A stretch of DNA of 64,000 nt, taken from contig CACHKQ010000001.1 of the NCBI GenBank assembly GCA_902580445.1, forward strand, positions 62,001 through 126,000. The letters run 5' to 3'. This document shows positions 31,168 through 64,000 of the stretch, piece by piece. The translations under genes were made by a program, and so were the position numbers. The notes under the pieces were generated by a model that saw only the letters and a program-made list of their open reading frames with translations, searched no databases and was not told where the DNA came from. Every line of letters starts with the position of its first letter. Within the stretch, counting starts at the first letter, position 1. The stretch is from an uncultured Pelagibacteraceae bacterium. Lineage in GTDB: Bacteria > Pseudomonadota > Alphaproteobacteria > Pelagibacterales > Pelagibacteraceae.

Positions 31168-31270
31168 ATTTTTTTCGATTATAACTTCCTTTTCCTTTTT
31201 TTGGTTTAACAACTCTTTTTTTATACTTTACTGAAAATAAATCTTTGGCAATGATATTTCTTTTTTTCAA
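31154..31270 (-). CDS. arfA: ArfA-like alternative ribosome-rescue factor (38 aa)
   Basis: A very short frame starting with TTG at 31270, whose start overlaps the stop of the upstream regulator gene as TTGA, and ending with TAG at 31154. The product has a LFSVKYKKRVVKPKKGKGSY core followed by NRKKFKKV. The RVVK..KGKGSY.RK pattern is the signature of ArfA, which recruits release factor 2 to ribosomes stalled on mRNA lacking a stop codon. Compared with E. coli ArfA it lacks the C-terminal hydrophobic tail, so it resembles the already truncated, active form. The end lies inside the 3' end of the PfkB gene. Confidence 0.75.
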   Translation of the reverse strand: MKKRNIIAKDLFSVKYKKRVVKPKKGKGSYNRKKFKKV

Positions 31271-31896
31271 AGCGAATAGCCAAATTTAGTATTTTTAATA
31301 AAATTTTGATCTTCAAATATTTTGTTAACTTTATGTCTTAATCTATATATATGAGTCTCAATCGTATGAGTTTCCGTTCCAGGTGAGTAAAACCAAATTT
31401 TTTCTAAGATATATTTTTTACTTAAAGGAGATTTTGAATTATTTAAAGTGCATAGAAAATCAATTTCTTTTTCAGTAATTTTAAGAGTTTTATCTCCTTT
31501 TTTTAAAATTCTTTCATTTTTATCAAGGATATAGTCTTTTATTTTAATTAAGGAATTCTTTTGAAACTCATTTTTTTTACATAATTCAATAATCTCCCTA
31601 TTAAACTTAATAATATTTAATGGTAGTTTAAATATTATTTTAGCTTGGCTATTTATATTCTTAAAATTTTTTTTACTATTTATTAAAATCTTTGGTAGAC
31701 TCATTAGACTGTTTGGAATTTTATTTGACATTTCATGATCTATTATTATTGCATCGAAATTTGAGCTTTGGTGGTTTTTGAAGTTCAGATCTATTGTTGA
31801 CATTTGAAATGTAAAAAAAGATTTTACTTCTTCTAAATACTTGTTAAAGTTTTTATCACACAAACAGGCAATATTAACTGAATAATTATTATGCAT
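31267..31896 (-). CDS. OmpR-type response regulator with degenerate receiver
   Basis: A 209-residue DNA-binding protein. The C-terminal winged helix (about 115-209) is clear: LKITEKEIDFLCTL, then SPGTETHTIETHIYRLRHKV as recognition helix, ending in TKFGYSL. The N-terminal 100 residues look like a shortened receiver: Asp53 (FDAIIIDHEM) could be the phosphoacceptor and Lys90 (IIFKLPLNI) the conserved lysine, but of the usual acidic pair only Asp14 remains. No histidine kinase is nearby. The start codon overlaps that of the divergent L,D-transpeptidase region. Confidence 0.82.
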   Translation of the reverse strand: MHNNYSVNIACLCDKNFNKYLEEVKSFFTFQMSTIDLNFKNHQSSNFDAIIIDHEMSNKIPNSLMSLPKILINSKKNFKNINSQAKIIFKLPLNIIKFNREIIELCKKNEFQKNSLIKIKDYILDKNERILKKGDKTLKITEKEIDFLCTLNNSKSPLSKKYILEKIWFYSPGTETHTIETHIYRLRHKVNKIFEDQNFIKNTKFGYSL

Positions 31897-38396: not shown

Positions 38397-39401
38397 ATGA
38401 TTATAAAAAGTTTTTTAATCGAAAAAGATTTATCTCTTGCAGACAATTATAATTTATTACTGTTTTATGGTGAAAATATTGGTTTAAAAGATGAGATCAA
38501 ATCTAAGCTTAAAAAAAAGCACAGTAGTTTCGAACAAATAACGTTTGTTCAGGACGAGATAATTAAAAATGAAAAGTTACTTTACGAACAAATTAATAAC
38601 GTATCAATGTTTAATGATAGTAAACTTATAATTATAAATGAAGTATCCGATAAATTATTTCCAAAAATAGAGGTTTTACTTGAAAAACTTCCGAATCATA
38701 TTTTATTAATTCTTTTTGCGCAAAACCTTGAAAAAAAATCAAAAATTAGATCCTACTTAGAGAAAGACAAAAAAGGAGGGATAGTTCCATGTTACCAGGA
38801 CAATCAGAGAACCCTTTCGGAATATGTGAGAGACAAACTGAAAGATTATTCCGGAATAAGTCAAAACATAATAAATTTATTGATAAGTAATTCAGGTTTA
38901 GACAGAAAAGTTCTATTTAGTGAAATTGAAAAAATTAAATCACTATTTCAAGATAAAAAAATTAATGAAGAAAAGATACTAAACCTTTTGAATGAGGAGA
39001 ATAACTTAAATTTTGAGGACCTTAGAGACTCTTGTTTGGAAGGAAATGCTGAAAAGTTAAATAAAAATTTAGGTTCTATTTCAATAAATAGTGAGAATAT
39101 TTATTTATACCTAAATAGTCTTAATCAAAGAGTTCAAAAACTATCGATGCTGATCAAACAAAATGAAAAAGACAAAAATATTGCTTACGCTTTAGACAAT
39201 TTGAAGCCAAAAGTATTCTGGAAAGATAAACCAGTGATGCTAAGACAAATAAAAAGATGGGATTATCTTAAATTAGAAAAAGTAAAAGATATCATTTTAG
39301 ATACAGAGATAAATATGAAAACTAAAATGAATACTCACAACCCAATTATACTTAAGAATTTGTTGGTGAGAATTTTTAATATTGCTAATTCTACTTCCTG
39401 A
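38397..39401 (+). CDS. holA: DNA polymerase III subunit delta
   Basis: The delta subunit opens the beta sliding clamp as part of the clamp loader. The 334-residue protein is divergent but shows the family layout: the N-terminal LLFYGENIGLKDEIKSKL, MFNDSKLIIINEVSDKL, the middle segment SNSGLDRKVLFSEIEKIKS, and a helical C-terminus. It is placed 2 bp after lptE as in most proteobacteria. The end overlaps the convergent parB by 11 bp. Confidence 0.9.
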   Translation: MIIKSFLIEKDLSLADNYNLLLFYGENIGLKDEIKSKLKKKHSSFEQITFVQDEIIKNEKLLYEQINNVSMFNDSKLIIINEVSDKLFPKIEVLLEKLPNHILLILFAQNLEKKSKIRSYLEKDKKGGIVPCYQDNQRTLSEYVRDKLKDYSGISQNIINLLISNSGLDRKVLFSEIEKIKSLFQDKKINEEKILNLLNEENNLNFEDLRDSCLEGNAEKLNKNLGSISINSENIYLYLNSLNQRVQKLSMLIKQNEKDKNIAYALDNLKPKVFWKDKPVMLRQIKRWDYLKLEKVKDIILDTEINMKTKMNTHNPIILKNLLVRIFNIANSTS

Positions 39402-40236
39402 GCAATTTGGAGATCAGCTCGAACTGTTCCAAGGTTTTATATTTAATAACTATTTTTCCTGAATTATTTTTTTTATTTAATATTTCAACATTCAATCCGA
39501 GTTTACTCTCTATTTCGTTTTGGACAAAAGAAATATTTGGATCTTCAATTTTTTCAGAAATTTTGTTCTTTTTTTGCTTTGCTAGAGCTTCGACCTGTCT
39601 TGCAGCTACCTTCTTTTTTACTATATTTTCTGCGACTTCTGAGGCATTTGGCATTCCAATCAAAGGCCGTGCTTGTCCAGCTGTTAACTTTCCTTCCTGC
39701 AAAAGACCAATTACATCATTTGGTAAACTTAATAATCTAATTGTATTGCTTATATGGCTTCGGCTTTTGGACATGAGCTTTGAAATTTTATCGTGATCAT
39801 ATCCAAACTCCATGTGAAGTCTTTGATAACCCTTGGCTTCTTCAACAATATTTAGATCTTGTCTTTGAACATTCTCAACTATAGCAATTTCCAAGCTCTT
39901 CTGGTCATCTACATCTAAAATGACAACTGGCACCTCATTCAATCCTGCTTTCTGAGCAGCAAGCCATCTCCGTTCACCTGCGATTATCTCATATTTACCA
40001 GTTTCATATTTGTTTGGTCTCACCGCTATCGGTTGGATGACTCCACTTTCTTTTATAGACATGCTCAACTCTTCTAATTTGTCTTGATCAAAAATTATTC
40101 TGGGTTGATATTTATTTCTTCTAAGATCCGAAATTGCGAGGGTATTTTTTTGATTTTTATCATTATCGATTTGATTTTCTATATCGCCAAATAATGCTGA
40201 TAATCCTTTTCCAAGTCCTTTTTTTTGAACACTCAT
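39391..40236 (-). CDS. parB: Chromosome-partitioning protein ParB
   Basis: ParB binds parS and spreads as a CTP-dependent clamp to segregate the origin region. The 281-residue protein has GLGKGLSALFG at the N-terminus, ISDLRRNKYQPRIIFDQDKL, the CTP-binding EIIAGERRWLAAQKAGL (about 90-106), the helix-turn-helix DHDKISKLMSKSRSHISNTIRLLSLP, and a C-terminal dimerisation region. It overlaps parA by 4 bp, and two parS-like sites lie about 1 kb upstream in rsmG. Confidence 0.98.
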   Translation of the reverse strand: MSVQKKGLGKGLSALFGDIENQIDNDKNQKNTLAISDLRRNKYQPRIIFDQDKLEELSMSIKESGVIQPIAVRPNKYETGKYEIIAGERRWLAAQKAGLNEVPVVILDVDDQKSLEIAIVENVQRQDLNIVEEAKGYQRLHMEFGYDHDKISKLMSKSRSHISNTIRLLSLPNDVIGLLQEGKLTAGQARPLIGMPNASEVAENIVKKKVAARQVEALAKQKKNKISEKIEDPNISFVQNEIESKLGLNVEILNKKNNSGKIVIKYKTLEQFELISKLLRK

Positions 40237-41033
40237 GCGGCACTTCCTATTTCTTGACTATTTTGTTCAAGGAATTCTTCAGCCAGTTTAATATAAGATT
40301 TGCTTCCAGAACAATTTTTGTCGTAAACAATACATGGCATTCCATGTGAAGGCGCTTCTGATAATCTGACATTTCTTGGAACTACTGTCTTATAAACTTT
40401 GTCCCCAAAATGCTTTCTTGCCTCCAAATCAACTTGGGATGACAGCTTATTTCGCTTGTCATACATAGTAAGTAGCACACCTCTGATTCCAAGTTCGCTA
40501 TTGAGGTTGATCTTAATTCTGTCGATAGTTTTAACTAATTGAGAAATTCCTTCTAAAGCAAAAAATTCTGTTTGCAGCGGTATCAATAAATCATCAGCTA
40601 AGACTAATGACATAACTGTTAAGAGGCTCAGTGAGGGTGGGCAGTCAATAAAGATGTTCTCGTAACTTCTTAATAATGATTGATTTTCCTCTAATAAAAT
40701 CTTCTTTAAAAGAAAAGCTCTATTTGCATCATTAGCTGTTTCAACTTCTAGGCCGGATAGATTCACGTTGGATGCGATTAAGTCTAAATTTTTTATGTTA
40801 CTTTCCTGGATTGCATTTTGAACCGAAGTTTTACCGATTAGCACGTTGTAAATACTTTTAGACTCATCATTGTTAGATTTGCCTAAACCAGTAGTAGCGT
40901 TCCCTTGCGGGTCTAGGTCTACCACTAAAATCCTCTTGCCTTTTTGAGCTAGAGCACTAGCAAGATTTATTACAGTCGTTGTCTTTCCGACCCCGCCTTT
41001 TTGATTTATCACTGATATTACAGATCTAGCCAC
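40233..41033 (-). CDS. parA: Chromosome-partitioning ATPase ParA (Soj)
   Basis: A deviant-Walker ATPase that drives movement of ParB-parS complexes. The 266-residue protein has INQKGGVGKTTTVINLASAL at residues 9-28 with the signature lysine, VDLDPQGNATTGLG, and FIDCPPSLSLLT (about 131-142). It is encoded between rsmG (3-bp gap) and parB in the standard mnmG-rsmG-parA-parB order, which places this region near the replication origin. Confidence 0.98.
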   Translation of the reverse strand: MARSVISVINQKGGVGKTTTVINLASALAQKGKRILVVDLDPQGNATTGLGKSNNDESKSIYNVLIGKTSVQNAIQESNIKNLDLIASNVNLSGLEVETANDANRAFLLKKILLEENQSLLRSYENIFIDCPPSLSLLTVMSLVLADDLLIPLQTEFFALEGISQLVKTIDRIKINLNSELGIRGVLLTMYDKRNKLSSQVDLEARKHFGDKVYKTVVPRNVRLSEAPSHGMPCIVYDKNCSGSKSYIKLAEEFLEQNSQEIGSAA

Positions 41034-41036
41034 AAT

Positions 41037-41675
41037 TTATTTTTGTACATCCACCAGTAAAATTTTAGAATCACTACTGGTAATGCTATTAACTAGCTTA
41101 TACTTATAAATTAAACCCTTTGAAGCTTTATTTATCTCGTCCTGTGCACTCTTTCCAAGCATCACGATAAGTTTGTGAGGTTTTTTATGAGTTTCACGTG
41201 AAATTCTCAGTATTTCAGGCAATTTTTTAAAGGCGCGACAAACAATATATTCTGTATCTATTATATGAGATTGATAATCATTATCATATATATCAACATT
41301 TCTCAAGTTTATTTTGTCTATAATATATTTAATAAATTTTACTTTAACCTTTGATTTATCATAAAGTTTCACGTGAAACTTTAGAATATCATTAAAAAAG
41401 ATAGATAATATAATTCCAGGAAACCCCCCTCCAGTACCTAGGTCAGATAAACTATTAAAATTTTTATGGTCTATATAATTCACAAGCTGAGCAGAATCCA
41501 GGACGTGCCTGTTCCAAATATCTTTTTCTGAACTTTTTGAGATTAAATTGTACTTTTTATTATAATTTAGAACTTCTTTAACGTAAATTTCAATAAGTTT
41601 AATTTTTTCGTCGCTGAAATTGAGACTTTTAGACAAATATAACTTTGATTTAGAATTAAATTCACTAGAATACAT
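41037..41675 (-). CDS. rsmG: 16S rRNA (guanine-527-N7)-methyltransferase
   Basis: RsmG (GidB) methylates G527 of 16S rRNA. The 212-residue protein has KYNLISKSSEKDIWNRHVLDS at the N-terminal side, the SAM-binding SDLGTGGGFPGIILSI (about 78-93), and the later AFKKLPEILRISRETHKKPHK. Loss of RsmG gives low-level streptomycin resistance in other bacteria. Two CACGTG-centred palindromes that fit the parS consensus are embedded in the coding sequence. Confidence 0.95.
   Translation of the reverse strand: MYSSEFNSKSKLYLSKSLNFSDEKIKLIEIYVKEVLNYNKKYNLISKSSEKDIWNRHVLDSAQLVNYIDHKNFNSLSDLGTGGGFPGIILSIFFNDILKFHVKLYDKSKVKVKFIKYIIDKINLRNVDIYDNDYQSHIIDTEYIVCRAFKKLPEILRISRETHKKPHKLIVMLGKSAQDEINKASKGLIYKYKLVNSITSSDSKILLVDVQK
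41191..41204. promoter_or_regulatory. parS site, 13 of 14 match
   Basis: GTTTCACGTGAAAT differs from the ParB-binding consensus GTTTCACGTGAAAC in the final base. It lies inside rsmG, 158 bp from the parA start, and is paired with a perfect copy 175 bp away. ParB and ParA are encoded immediately downstream. Confidence 0.85.
41366..41379. promoter_or_regulatory. parS site, perfect match
   Basis: GTTTCACGTGAAAC matches the parS consensus exactly and is part of a longer 20-bp palindrome (41363-41382, AAA and TTT extensions). It lies inside the rsmG coding sequence beside parA-parB. Confidence 0.93.
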
Positions 41676-61622: not shown

Positions 61623-62200
61623 TTCAAACTACTTAAATACTCCTTTATTTTTTTCACGGGCAGTCCCATGATTGAATCTTCGTCTCCTTCAATTTTTGAG
61701 AACAAATCCTTTCCACCAGCTTCGATCTGATAGACTCCATAAGCATATAAATTTTTGTCATCTACTTTTTTTAAATAAACTTTGATTTCGTCTAAATTAA
61801 GTTTTTTCATTGTTAAAGTGGAGGCGTCTGTATAATTCCAAATCATTGATCCATTTTTAGATATACATACCGAACTTATCAATTGATGTTTTTTTCCATT
61901 TAATTTTTGTAGAATTTCAAATCCTTCATCTCTTGATTTTGGTTTTGATATTAGCTCTCCACCTAAATCAATAACGCTGTCTGCTCCAAGAACAATTTGG
62001 TCGGGTGCTTTGTAACTTACTTTGTTTGCTTTAAGTTCTGCTAGATTTTTAGATATCAACATTGGACTGGCGCCCTCCGCTAGCAAAGAAACCTTTACTT
62101 CGTCTTCATTTACATTTGATTCAACGACCTGGTTTTCGATATTATTTTGATCTAAAATTTTTTTTCTTACACCGCTTTTAGAAGCTAAAATTATTTTCAT
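61616..62200 (-). CDS. maf: Maf-family nucleoside triphosphate pyrophosphatase
   Basis: Hydrolyses non-canonical or modified nucleotides such as dTTP/UTP analogues. The 194-residue protein has IILASKSGVRKKILDQNNIE at the N-terminus, IVLGADSVIDLGGELISKP with the catalytic Asp (about 70-88), and the C-terminal segment KIEGDEDSIMGLPVKKIKEYL. Conserved Gly and Asp residues are kept. It overlaps ppsR by 4 bp and lies second in the set running away from the predicted origin. Confidence 0.95.
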   Translation of the reverse strand: MKIILASKSGVRKKILDQNNIENQVVESNVNEDEVKVSLLAEGASPMLISKNLAELKANKVSYKAPDQIVLGADSVIDLGGELISKPKSRDEGFEILQKLNGKKHQLISSVCISKNGSMIWNYTDASTLTMKKLNLDEIKVYLKKVDDKNLYAYGVYQIEAGGKDLFSKIEGDEDSIMGLPVKKIKEYLSSLKC

Positions 62201-63018
62201 TTATTTTTCTTAATTTCAAATATTTTAATTATCGAAGCTGCGGTTTCCTCTACCGACCTTCGCGTCACATCAATTGTTGGCCAACTATACTGTTTCATCA
62301 TTTTCTTTGAATTTTCTACTTCAACCTTTATCGCCTCTGCATCGGTATAAGTTTTTAGATCTATTGCCTGGTTTACACTTGCTCGTGTCTTCCTAATTTC
62401 AGATAATCTCTCTGGATCTGCTACTAAACCAATAACGCAAAAATTAGAAAAGTTTTCTTTAAGTGTTTCTGGAATTGTTTGATCAAGAACTAAGGGTATA
62501 TTCAAGGTTTTGTAACCCCGATTTGCTAAATAAATTGAAGTGGGTGTTTTGCTAGTTCTGCTTACGCCAAGCAAAATTATATCTGCTTGGCTAAGATCTT
62601 CTGTTTTCTTTCCATCGTCATGTGACATTGTAAATTGTATTGCCTCTATCCTTTTGTAATAATCTTCGTCCAAAACATGTTGGGCGCTAGGCTTATGTAT
62701 GGCCTTTTGATTTAGTAATTTGGAAAAACTAAGTATTAAATTTCCAAGAACTCCAAAGCAAGGAATGGTTTTTTTAATACTTTGACTAGCAAGATATTTA
62801 GCTAATTTTGTATCTACTATAGTGTATAAAATAATTGTATTTTTCTTTTCTTTATGTTCGTTTAATATTTTGTCTATTTGTTGTTCAGTTCTAATAAAAA
62901 CATACTCTTTTTTATCATATTCAAAACTTGCAAACTGAGATTGTATAGCAAGGAAGATTCTTCCTAGGGTTTCCCCGGTTGAATCCGAAATCAGAACTAT
63001 TTGGTATTTTCCTGTCAT
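62197..63018 (-). CDS. ppsR: Bifunctional PEP synthase/PPDK regulatory protein (DUF299)
   Basis: A kinase/pyrophosphorylase that switches PEP synthase or pyruvate phosphate dikinase on and off. The 273-residue protein has VLISDSTGETLGRIFLAI at the start, the FTMSHDDGK segment and the P-loop-like GVSRTSKTPTSIYLANRGYK (about 154-173), then the later VADPERLSEIRKTR. This is the homologue of the gene that borders the origin opposite hemE in Rickettsia (RP001) and Caulobacter. Confidence 0.93.
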   Translation of the reverse strand: MTGKYQIVLISDSTGETLGRIFLAIQSQFASFEYDKKEYVFIRTEQQIDKILNEHKEKKNTIILYTIVDTKLAKYLASQSIKKTIPCFGVLGNLILSFSKLLNQKAIHKPSAQHVLDEDYYKRIEAIQFTMSHDDGKKTEDLSQADIILLGVSRTSKTPTSIYLANRGYKTLNIPLVLDQTIPETLKENFSNFCVIGLVADPERLSEIRKTRASVNQAIDLKTYTDAEAIKVEVENSKKMMKQYSWPTIDVTRRSVEETAASIIKIFEIKKNK

Positions 63019-63291
63019 TAATATTGTTAATTAAATTATAATAATTAATAGTTATACATATAGATTAATAGAAATATTTTTTTTATTCACGCAAGATTAA
63101 CAAATTGCGAACATTTTATCCTATGTTAATAGTTTTATAACTTTTATTAAACATTGTGTATAATTACTCAAATCTGAGTAAATATTATCATTCAAAATGT
63201 ATAAAAATGTAGATAAATGAATAATTATTCAAAATATACTAACCAACATACCCTATTACATCAATTATAATTTAAAACTATAATATATAAT
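63019..63291. other. Predicted chromosomal replication origin (oriC) between ppsR and hemE
   Basis: The longest non-coding stretch in the window. It holds six 9-mers close to the DnaA box TTATNCACA: TTATACATA (63052), TTATTCACG (63083) and TTATCCTAT (63116) on the plus strand; TTATACACA (63155-63163, an exact match), TTATACATT (63196) and TTATCTACA (63208) on the minus strand. Between them are an inverted repeat TTACTCA-AATC-TGAGTAA (63164-63181) and a palindrome TGAATAATTATTCA (63218-63231). An AT-only run lies next to hemE (about 63265-63291) and could be the unwinding element. hemE and the ppsR gene flank oriC in Caulobacter and Rickettsia. Promoters for both genes must also be here. Confidence 0.82.
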
Positions 63292-64000
63292 ATGAATAAA
63301 ATAACAGACTGTATAATTAATAAAGATGTTTCTATTAAACCTATTTGGTTTATGAGACAAGCTGGTAGATATCTTCCTGAATTTAGAAAAATTAGAAGTG
63401 AAAATAAAGATTTTATAAAACTATGCCTAAATCCTGATCTAGTAAGGGAAATTACACTACAACCCATAAATAGATTTAAATTAGATGCAGCTATAATTTT
63501 TTCTGATATTTTAATAATACCTTATGGTTTAAACCAGAAAGTAGAATTTAAAAAAGGACACGGACCTATTCTAGGGGATATAGATTTTGATGAAATAATA
63601 AATTTTAAAGAAGATAATTTCATTGATCGTGTATCCCCAGTTTACAAAGGAATAAAAAAAACAAAAGAAAAGCTAAAAAATACAAATCTGATTGGTTTTG
63701 CAGGGGCTCCATGGACTCTCTTGGTCTATATGATTAACAAAGAGTCACCAAAGAAAAATTTTAATATTAAAAATTTTTTTAAAGAAGAAGAAAAAATAGA
63801 AAAATTAATGCACAAAATTGAAGATTTAATATTCCTACACCTTAAAAAACAAATAGAATCAGGAGCAGATATTGTTCAAATATTCGATTCATGGGCAGGA
63901 TTGCTCCCAGAAAGTAAAATAAAAAACTTTTGTTTTGATCCAACCAAAAGAATTGTCGAAAGACTAAAGAAACTAAACAAGCCAATTATTTGCTTTCCAA
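63292..64000 (+). CDS. hemE: Uroporphyrinogen decarboxylase, 3' end outside window
   Basis: Converts uroporphyrinogen III to coproporphyrinogen III in haem synthesis. The visible 236 residues from the ATG at 63292 cover about two thirds of the usual 345-355. Motifs are PIWFMRQAGRYLPEFRKIR, ALDAAIIFSDILIIPYGL-like sequence with the catalytic Asp, GFAGAPWTLLVYMI and IVQIFDSWAGLLP. The frame is open to the last base of the window. It begins just after the predicted origin. Confidence 0.97.
   Translation, partial: MNKITDCIINKDVSIKPIWFMRQAGRYLPEFRKIRSENKDFIKLCLNPDLVREITLQPINRFKLDAAIIFSDILIIPYGLNQKVEFKKGHGPILGDIDFDEIINFKEDNFIDRVSPVYKGIKKTKEKLKNTNLIGFAGAPWTLLVYMINKESPKKNFNIKNFFKEEEKIEKLMHKIEDLIFLHLKKQIESGADIVQIFDSWAGLLPESKIKNFCFDPTKRIVERLKKLNKPIICFP

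Follow-up and report, generated by a model that had tools for sequence, protein, structure and literature searches.

In Caulobacter and Rickettsia, the chromosomal origin of replication (oriC) is situated between hemE and a gene of the COG1806 family (PMC1914354). Caulobacter Cori contains five CtrA sites and one IHF site (PMC1914354), and the origin of R. prowazekii, according to PMC1914354 and the title of Brassinga 2002 (cited in PMC4468827), exceeds 400 bp and also carries CtrA and IHF sites. In Wolbachia, ori is found between COG1253 and hemE, and CtrA sites are missing in one strain (PMC1914354). An oriC of this hemE type is recognized by its hemE/COG1806 setting, AT-rich DNA, more DnaA boxes than other intergenic regions, a GC-skew switch, and an origin-proximal parS. 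A search of the available literature yielded no description of a SAR11 origin, although DoriC may contain an entry.

We analyzed a window of 64,000 nucleotides (G000:C1:62001-126000) from a SAR11 (Pelagibacteraceae) genome of 847 kb (35 contigs, 82% complete). A first-pass annotation had interpreted the noncoding gap between ppsR and hemE as oriC. This interpretation was supported, and from its sequence we consider the gap almost certain to be the chromosomal replication origin. The locus is organized as follows.

62197-63018, minus strand: ppsR (DUF299/Kinase-PPPase; PF03618; COG1806), flanking the gap
63019-63291, no strand assigned: predicted oriC, a 273-bp noncoding gap with 16.5% GC
63292-64000, plus strand: hemE (uroporphyrinogen decarboxylase; PF01208), flanking the gap and continuing past the end of the window

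The gap coordinates had been given correctly, with ppsR (minus) ending at 63018 and hemE (plus) starting at 63292. The two genes are divergent, as in the hemE/COG1806-type setting, and maf, aroE, coaE, dnaQ, and secB are found beyond ppsR. The gap ranked lowest in duplex stability among all 273-bp stretches of the window. The proposed synteny with the Caulobacter and Rickettsia origins is documented (PMC1914354), and of 29 alphaproteobacterial loci sampled, 23 showed the hemE/COG1806 arrangement, with 83 boxes versus 15 in the control. Since its location was thus predictable from the class, the gap represents a further case of a known oriC type. It shares with C. crescentus Cori the flanking genes, several DnaA boxes, an AT-rich tract, and linked parABS, but is only 273 bp long, lacks CtrA and IHF sites, and belongs to a genome in which no CtrA protein was found. 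Similarly, R. prowazekii has the same hemE/COG1806 setting within an AT-rich genome, whereas the window's gap is shorter (273 bp versus >400 bp) and without CtrA and IHF sites. Wolbachia resembles a SAR11 sister family lacking ppsR in that the flank is rearranged and the origin stays beside hemE, but differs in the other neighbor gene and in box layout. Judged by its sequence, the predicted origin falls within the known hemE-type alphaproteobacterial oriC as a compact representative free of CtrA, and is of interest for being short and lacking CtrA input.

Within the gap, the following elements were distinguished.

63025-63033, minus strand: box A (TAATTAACA), ppsR-proximal; TTATTCACA/TTATTAACA-like in most relatives
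63052-63060, plus strand: DnaA-box-like TTATACATA, 1 mismatch to TTATNCACA; conservation not clear
63083-63091, plus strand: DnaA-box-like TTATTCACG, 1 mismatch; column kept within the genus
63124-63132, minus strand: DnaA-box-like CTATTAACA, 1 mismatch to TTATNNACA
63155-63163, minus strand: box B, exact TTATACACA, conserved in the genus and the sister family
63198-63206, minus strand: box C1 (TTTTATACA), first member of a tandem pair
63208-63216, minus strand: box C2 (TTATCTACA), second member of the pair; at most 1 mismatch from TTATNNACA in 22/22 of the genus
63225-63233, plus strand: DnaA-box-like TTATTCAAA, 1 mismatch
63239-63261, plus strand: element D (CTAACCAACATACCCTATTACAT), the best-conserved block of the gap
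63263-63291, no strand assigned: AT tract adjoining element D, a candidate unwinding element

The first-pass annotation had counted six DnaA-box-like 9-mers, three on each strand. Five of them (3 plus, 2 minus) were within one mismatch of TTATNCACA, while the sixth required two; the one box described as exact was indeed exact (TTATACACA, 63155-63163, minus strand). Dinucleotide shuffles of the gap yielded 0.96 such 9-mers, and only 0.4% of them reached five. With two mismatches allowed, 13 boxes compared with 8.6 in shuffles (P = 0.07), and because this count was not significant, the earlier caution that AT-rich DNA produces box-like matches by chance was justified. Conservation and control patterns settled the question. 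The tract reported as AT-only on the hemE side was present, although only nearly AT-only, and ranked second lowest in stability among 40-bp stretches of the window. Of the reported 14-bp palindrome and 7-bp inverted repeat, the palindrome was perfect (TGAATAATTATTCA, 63218-63231) and several short inverted repeats were found; however, the palindrome was lost beyond the nearest relatives and therefore carries no weight. Palindromes and inverted repeats, not being conserved, were dropped as origin evidence.

Conservation was assessed in 104 aligned gaps from ∼100 genomes, at least three of which were present twice (two collections were used). Gap length was between 261 and 286 bp. Boxes with at most one mismatch averaged 4.44 per gap, compared with 0.78 when the pattern was reversed; for exact TTATNNACA, the corresponding values were 3.12 and 0.26, a 12-fold excess. 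Box positions were fixed relative to the hemE start (B at ∼-137, C1 at ∼-94, C2 at ∼-83, and D at ∼-50), with A located near ppsR. At ∼-130 to -138 from hemE, box B differed from TTATNNACA by no more than one mismatch in all 22 gaps from the genus and in 20 of 21 from the sister family, and it was present in only 41% of the family's other genera; boxes A and C were weak in the sister family. Same-strand box pairs with 11-bp spacing occurred in 64 gaps (control, 8) and those with 22-bp spacing in 43 (control, 9), as expected from helical phasing of DnaA. Since the gap sequences are related, these conservation and pair counts do not represent independent events. In E. coli oriC, low-affinity DnaA arrays consist of same-strand boxes ∼11 bp apart. 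The SAR11 gaps share this spacing at a different locus, and GATC, the SeqA/Dam site of E. coli oriC, was absent from the window's gap.

No CtrA site (TTAA-N7-TTAA) was present in the window's gap; across the family, this motif occurred 0.39 times per gap versus 0.18 in shuffled sequences. Four OmpR-type regulators were found (PhoB, a ChvI-like protein, an OmpR-like protein, and an orphan winged-helix protein), none of which was identified as CtrA by an NCBIfam scan, whose CtrA model is of the Rhodobacter type, together with sequence reading. “Candidatus Pelagibacter ubique” is likewise reported to lack a CtrA ortholog (PMC7987155). The IHF consensus WATCAANNNNTTR was absent from the window's gap and occurred 0.13 times per gap in the family, a provisional result because the consensus is weak. 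GANTC was also missing from the window's gap. In SAR11 family gaps (L032-L139) it was depleted (0.05 per gap versus 0.35 in shuffles), and more strongly so than in the whole window (123 versus 174 expected). GcrA is present, and a CcrM homolog has been reported for SAR11 (PMC3973325). As separate observations, gcrA adjoined phoB in two SAR11 genera (L188 and L185 loci; G034 and G029), and the orphan OmpR-type winged-helix protein (window 31267-31896, minus strand), with counterparts in other SAR11 genera (L206 and L207), had an N-terminal half without a recognizable receiver domain. The frame of the ChvI-like regulator (L194; G000:C1:35139-35348) appeared to be broken by a frameshift, which may be a sequencing error; open frames in relatives span ∼233 to 243 amino acids.

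With four OmpR-type regulators remaining in the genome, one of them might have replaced CtrA and still control the origin by binding element D, which would refine rather than contradict the oriC assignment. In favor of such control, element D in the window's own genus has drifted from a DnaA box to TAACTAACA and carries AACAT and TACAT as a pair of similar half-sites. In other genera, however, the block corresponds to a plus-strand box (ATATACACA, TTATTCACA, or TTATAAACA) and is simply a DnaA box, and we regard control by such a regulator as unlikely.

The gap might instead be merely the divergent promoter region of ppsR and hemE, with the conserved blocks acting as promoter or operator elements. 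A -10-like TATAAT is indeed present within the AT tract (63279-63284), 7 nt of sequence separate its end from the hemE ATG, and element D occupies the position expected of a -35 region or regulator site. Similar TATAAT motifs upstream of the hemE ATG (window 63279-63294) were seen in many relatives. The position of the motif suggests, at the level of sequence, a leaderless hemE mRNA beginning inside the origin, and a hemE promoter can overlap the origin. A promoter function alone is nevertheless very improbable in view of two natural rearrangements. All 24 genomes of the sister family of the same order lacked a ppsR match, but in the 21 of these genomes with a hemE locus the maf-hemE gap still measured 271 to 281 bp, with a minus-strand box at ∼-130 in most and a plus-strand box at ∼-52 in nearly all. 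In the complete genome G132, hemE (718 kb) has moved 577 kb away from ppsR (141 kb), yet the gap between ppsR and rho, the latter identified from its sequence (G132:C1:140516-142000, L264), is 353 bp long, has 17% GC, and retains an element D-like block, ATAAACATGACCTAATAAC. The predicted origin of G132 thus adjoins rho rather than hemE. Because the gap was kept both without ppsR and with hemE moved, the constraint belongs to the gap and not to one flanking gene. Promoter function would also leave the box phasing, the skew minimum, and the nearby parS unexplained.

The oriC assignment was also examined at the chromosome scale. For GC skew, three complete genomes (G032, G034, and G132) were each sampled as 20 stretches of 20 kb, and third-position skew (GC3) corrected for gene strand was evaluated by permutation. 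The best skew origin was at 1.100 Mb in G034, where the gap is at 1.090 Mb (P = 0.004), and at 150 kb in G132, where the gap is at 141 kb (P = 0.006). In G032, the corrected skew was compatible with the gap without being significant (P = 0.47), and the raw cumulative skew peaked near the antipode. The window and two genomes of its own genus gave no signal in strand-corrected third-position skew, and their raw skew was dominated by gene direction. The predicted GC-skew minimum was therefore confirmed in G034 and G132, whereas G032 was only compatible with it and the window's own genus provided no usable signal; the skew switch of a hemE-type oriC was seen to the same extent. Partitioning genes and sites were located in the window as follows.

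39391-40236, minus strand: parB
40233-41033, minus strand: parA, named from its sequence
41191-41204, no strand assigned: parS GTTTCACGTGAAAT (near-perfect), inside rsmG
41366-41379, no strand assigned: parS GTTTCACGTGAAAC (perfect), inside rsmG, ∼22 kb from the gap

Perfect parS GTTTCACGTGAAAC occurred once per complete genome, at a distance from the gap of 8 kb in G032, 17 kb in G034, and 20 kb in G132. In these genomes and that of the window, parB was within ∼2 kb of parS, and an origin-proximal parS (8 to 22 kb) was common to all four.

Box clusters were scored in every 275-bp stretch of 324 kb of the 847-kb genome (most of contigs C1 to C3). As the first-pass annotation had predicted, the gap ranked first, scoring 7 versus 3 for the runner-up, and in this portion of the genome exceeded other intergenic regions in DnaA boxes, albeit weak ones. 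In G032 and G034, of which one third each was sampled, the gap was also the top cluster; in G132 it only tied for the top score. Six candidate regions elsewhere with neighboring exact boxes were weaker than the gap. Single strong boxes were uninformative, since genome-wide counts of exact TTWTNCACA in the window's genus did not clearly exceed those of the reversed pattern. DnaA carries the DHTTVIHA motif, and its box-reading DNA-binding domain looked ordinary by inspection. Origins linked to dnaA are common in other phyla, and box clusters also occur outside origins; that the true origin is located beside dnaA (C1:50211-50684, domain match; 75 kb from the gap) or elsewhere, the gap being a DnaA-titrating or regulatory site, is nonetheless extremely unlikely, because a search of the dnaA neighborhood for a denser cluster, named earlier as a potential refutation, found none, the skew origins of G034 and G132 were within ∼10 kb of the gap, and a perfect parS is close to it.

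For the gap as oriC, the conserved, 11/22-bp-phased boxes are consistent with a mechanism in which DnaA would bind them. The complex would probably be anchored by box B, a stronger box on the minus strand, and by box A on the ppsR side. The same-strand pair C1-C2 could let DnaA-ATP extend toward hemE. Strand opening and DnaB loading probably take place in the AT tract, which is bordered by element D as the plus-strand box closest to hemE. Forks would depart in both directions, as indicated indirectly by GC skew in the complete relatives, and new origins may be segregated by parS and parAB within ∼8 to 22 kb, by analogy with parABS in other bacteria. With no sign of CtrA input, the timing of replication would depend on the amount of DnaA and on its nucleotide state. 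Chances seem about even that this is a minimal, ∼270-bp DnaA-only origin that lost its CtrA, GANTC-methylation, and IHF inputs during genome streamlining and kept an old box layout despite the loss or relocation of flanking genes.

SAR11 bacteria are among the ocean's most abundant cells. Previous work placed the terminus by coverage minima and, in the accessible part of the report, does not name the origin sequence (PMC9589681). An origin map at base level provides a fixed reference point when growth is read from metagenomic coverage, and SAR11 offers a small, testable origin for asking how an alphaproteobacterium times its replication without CtrA.
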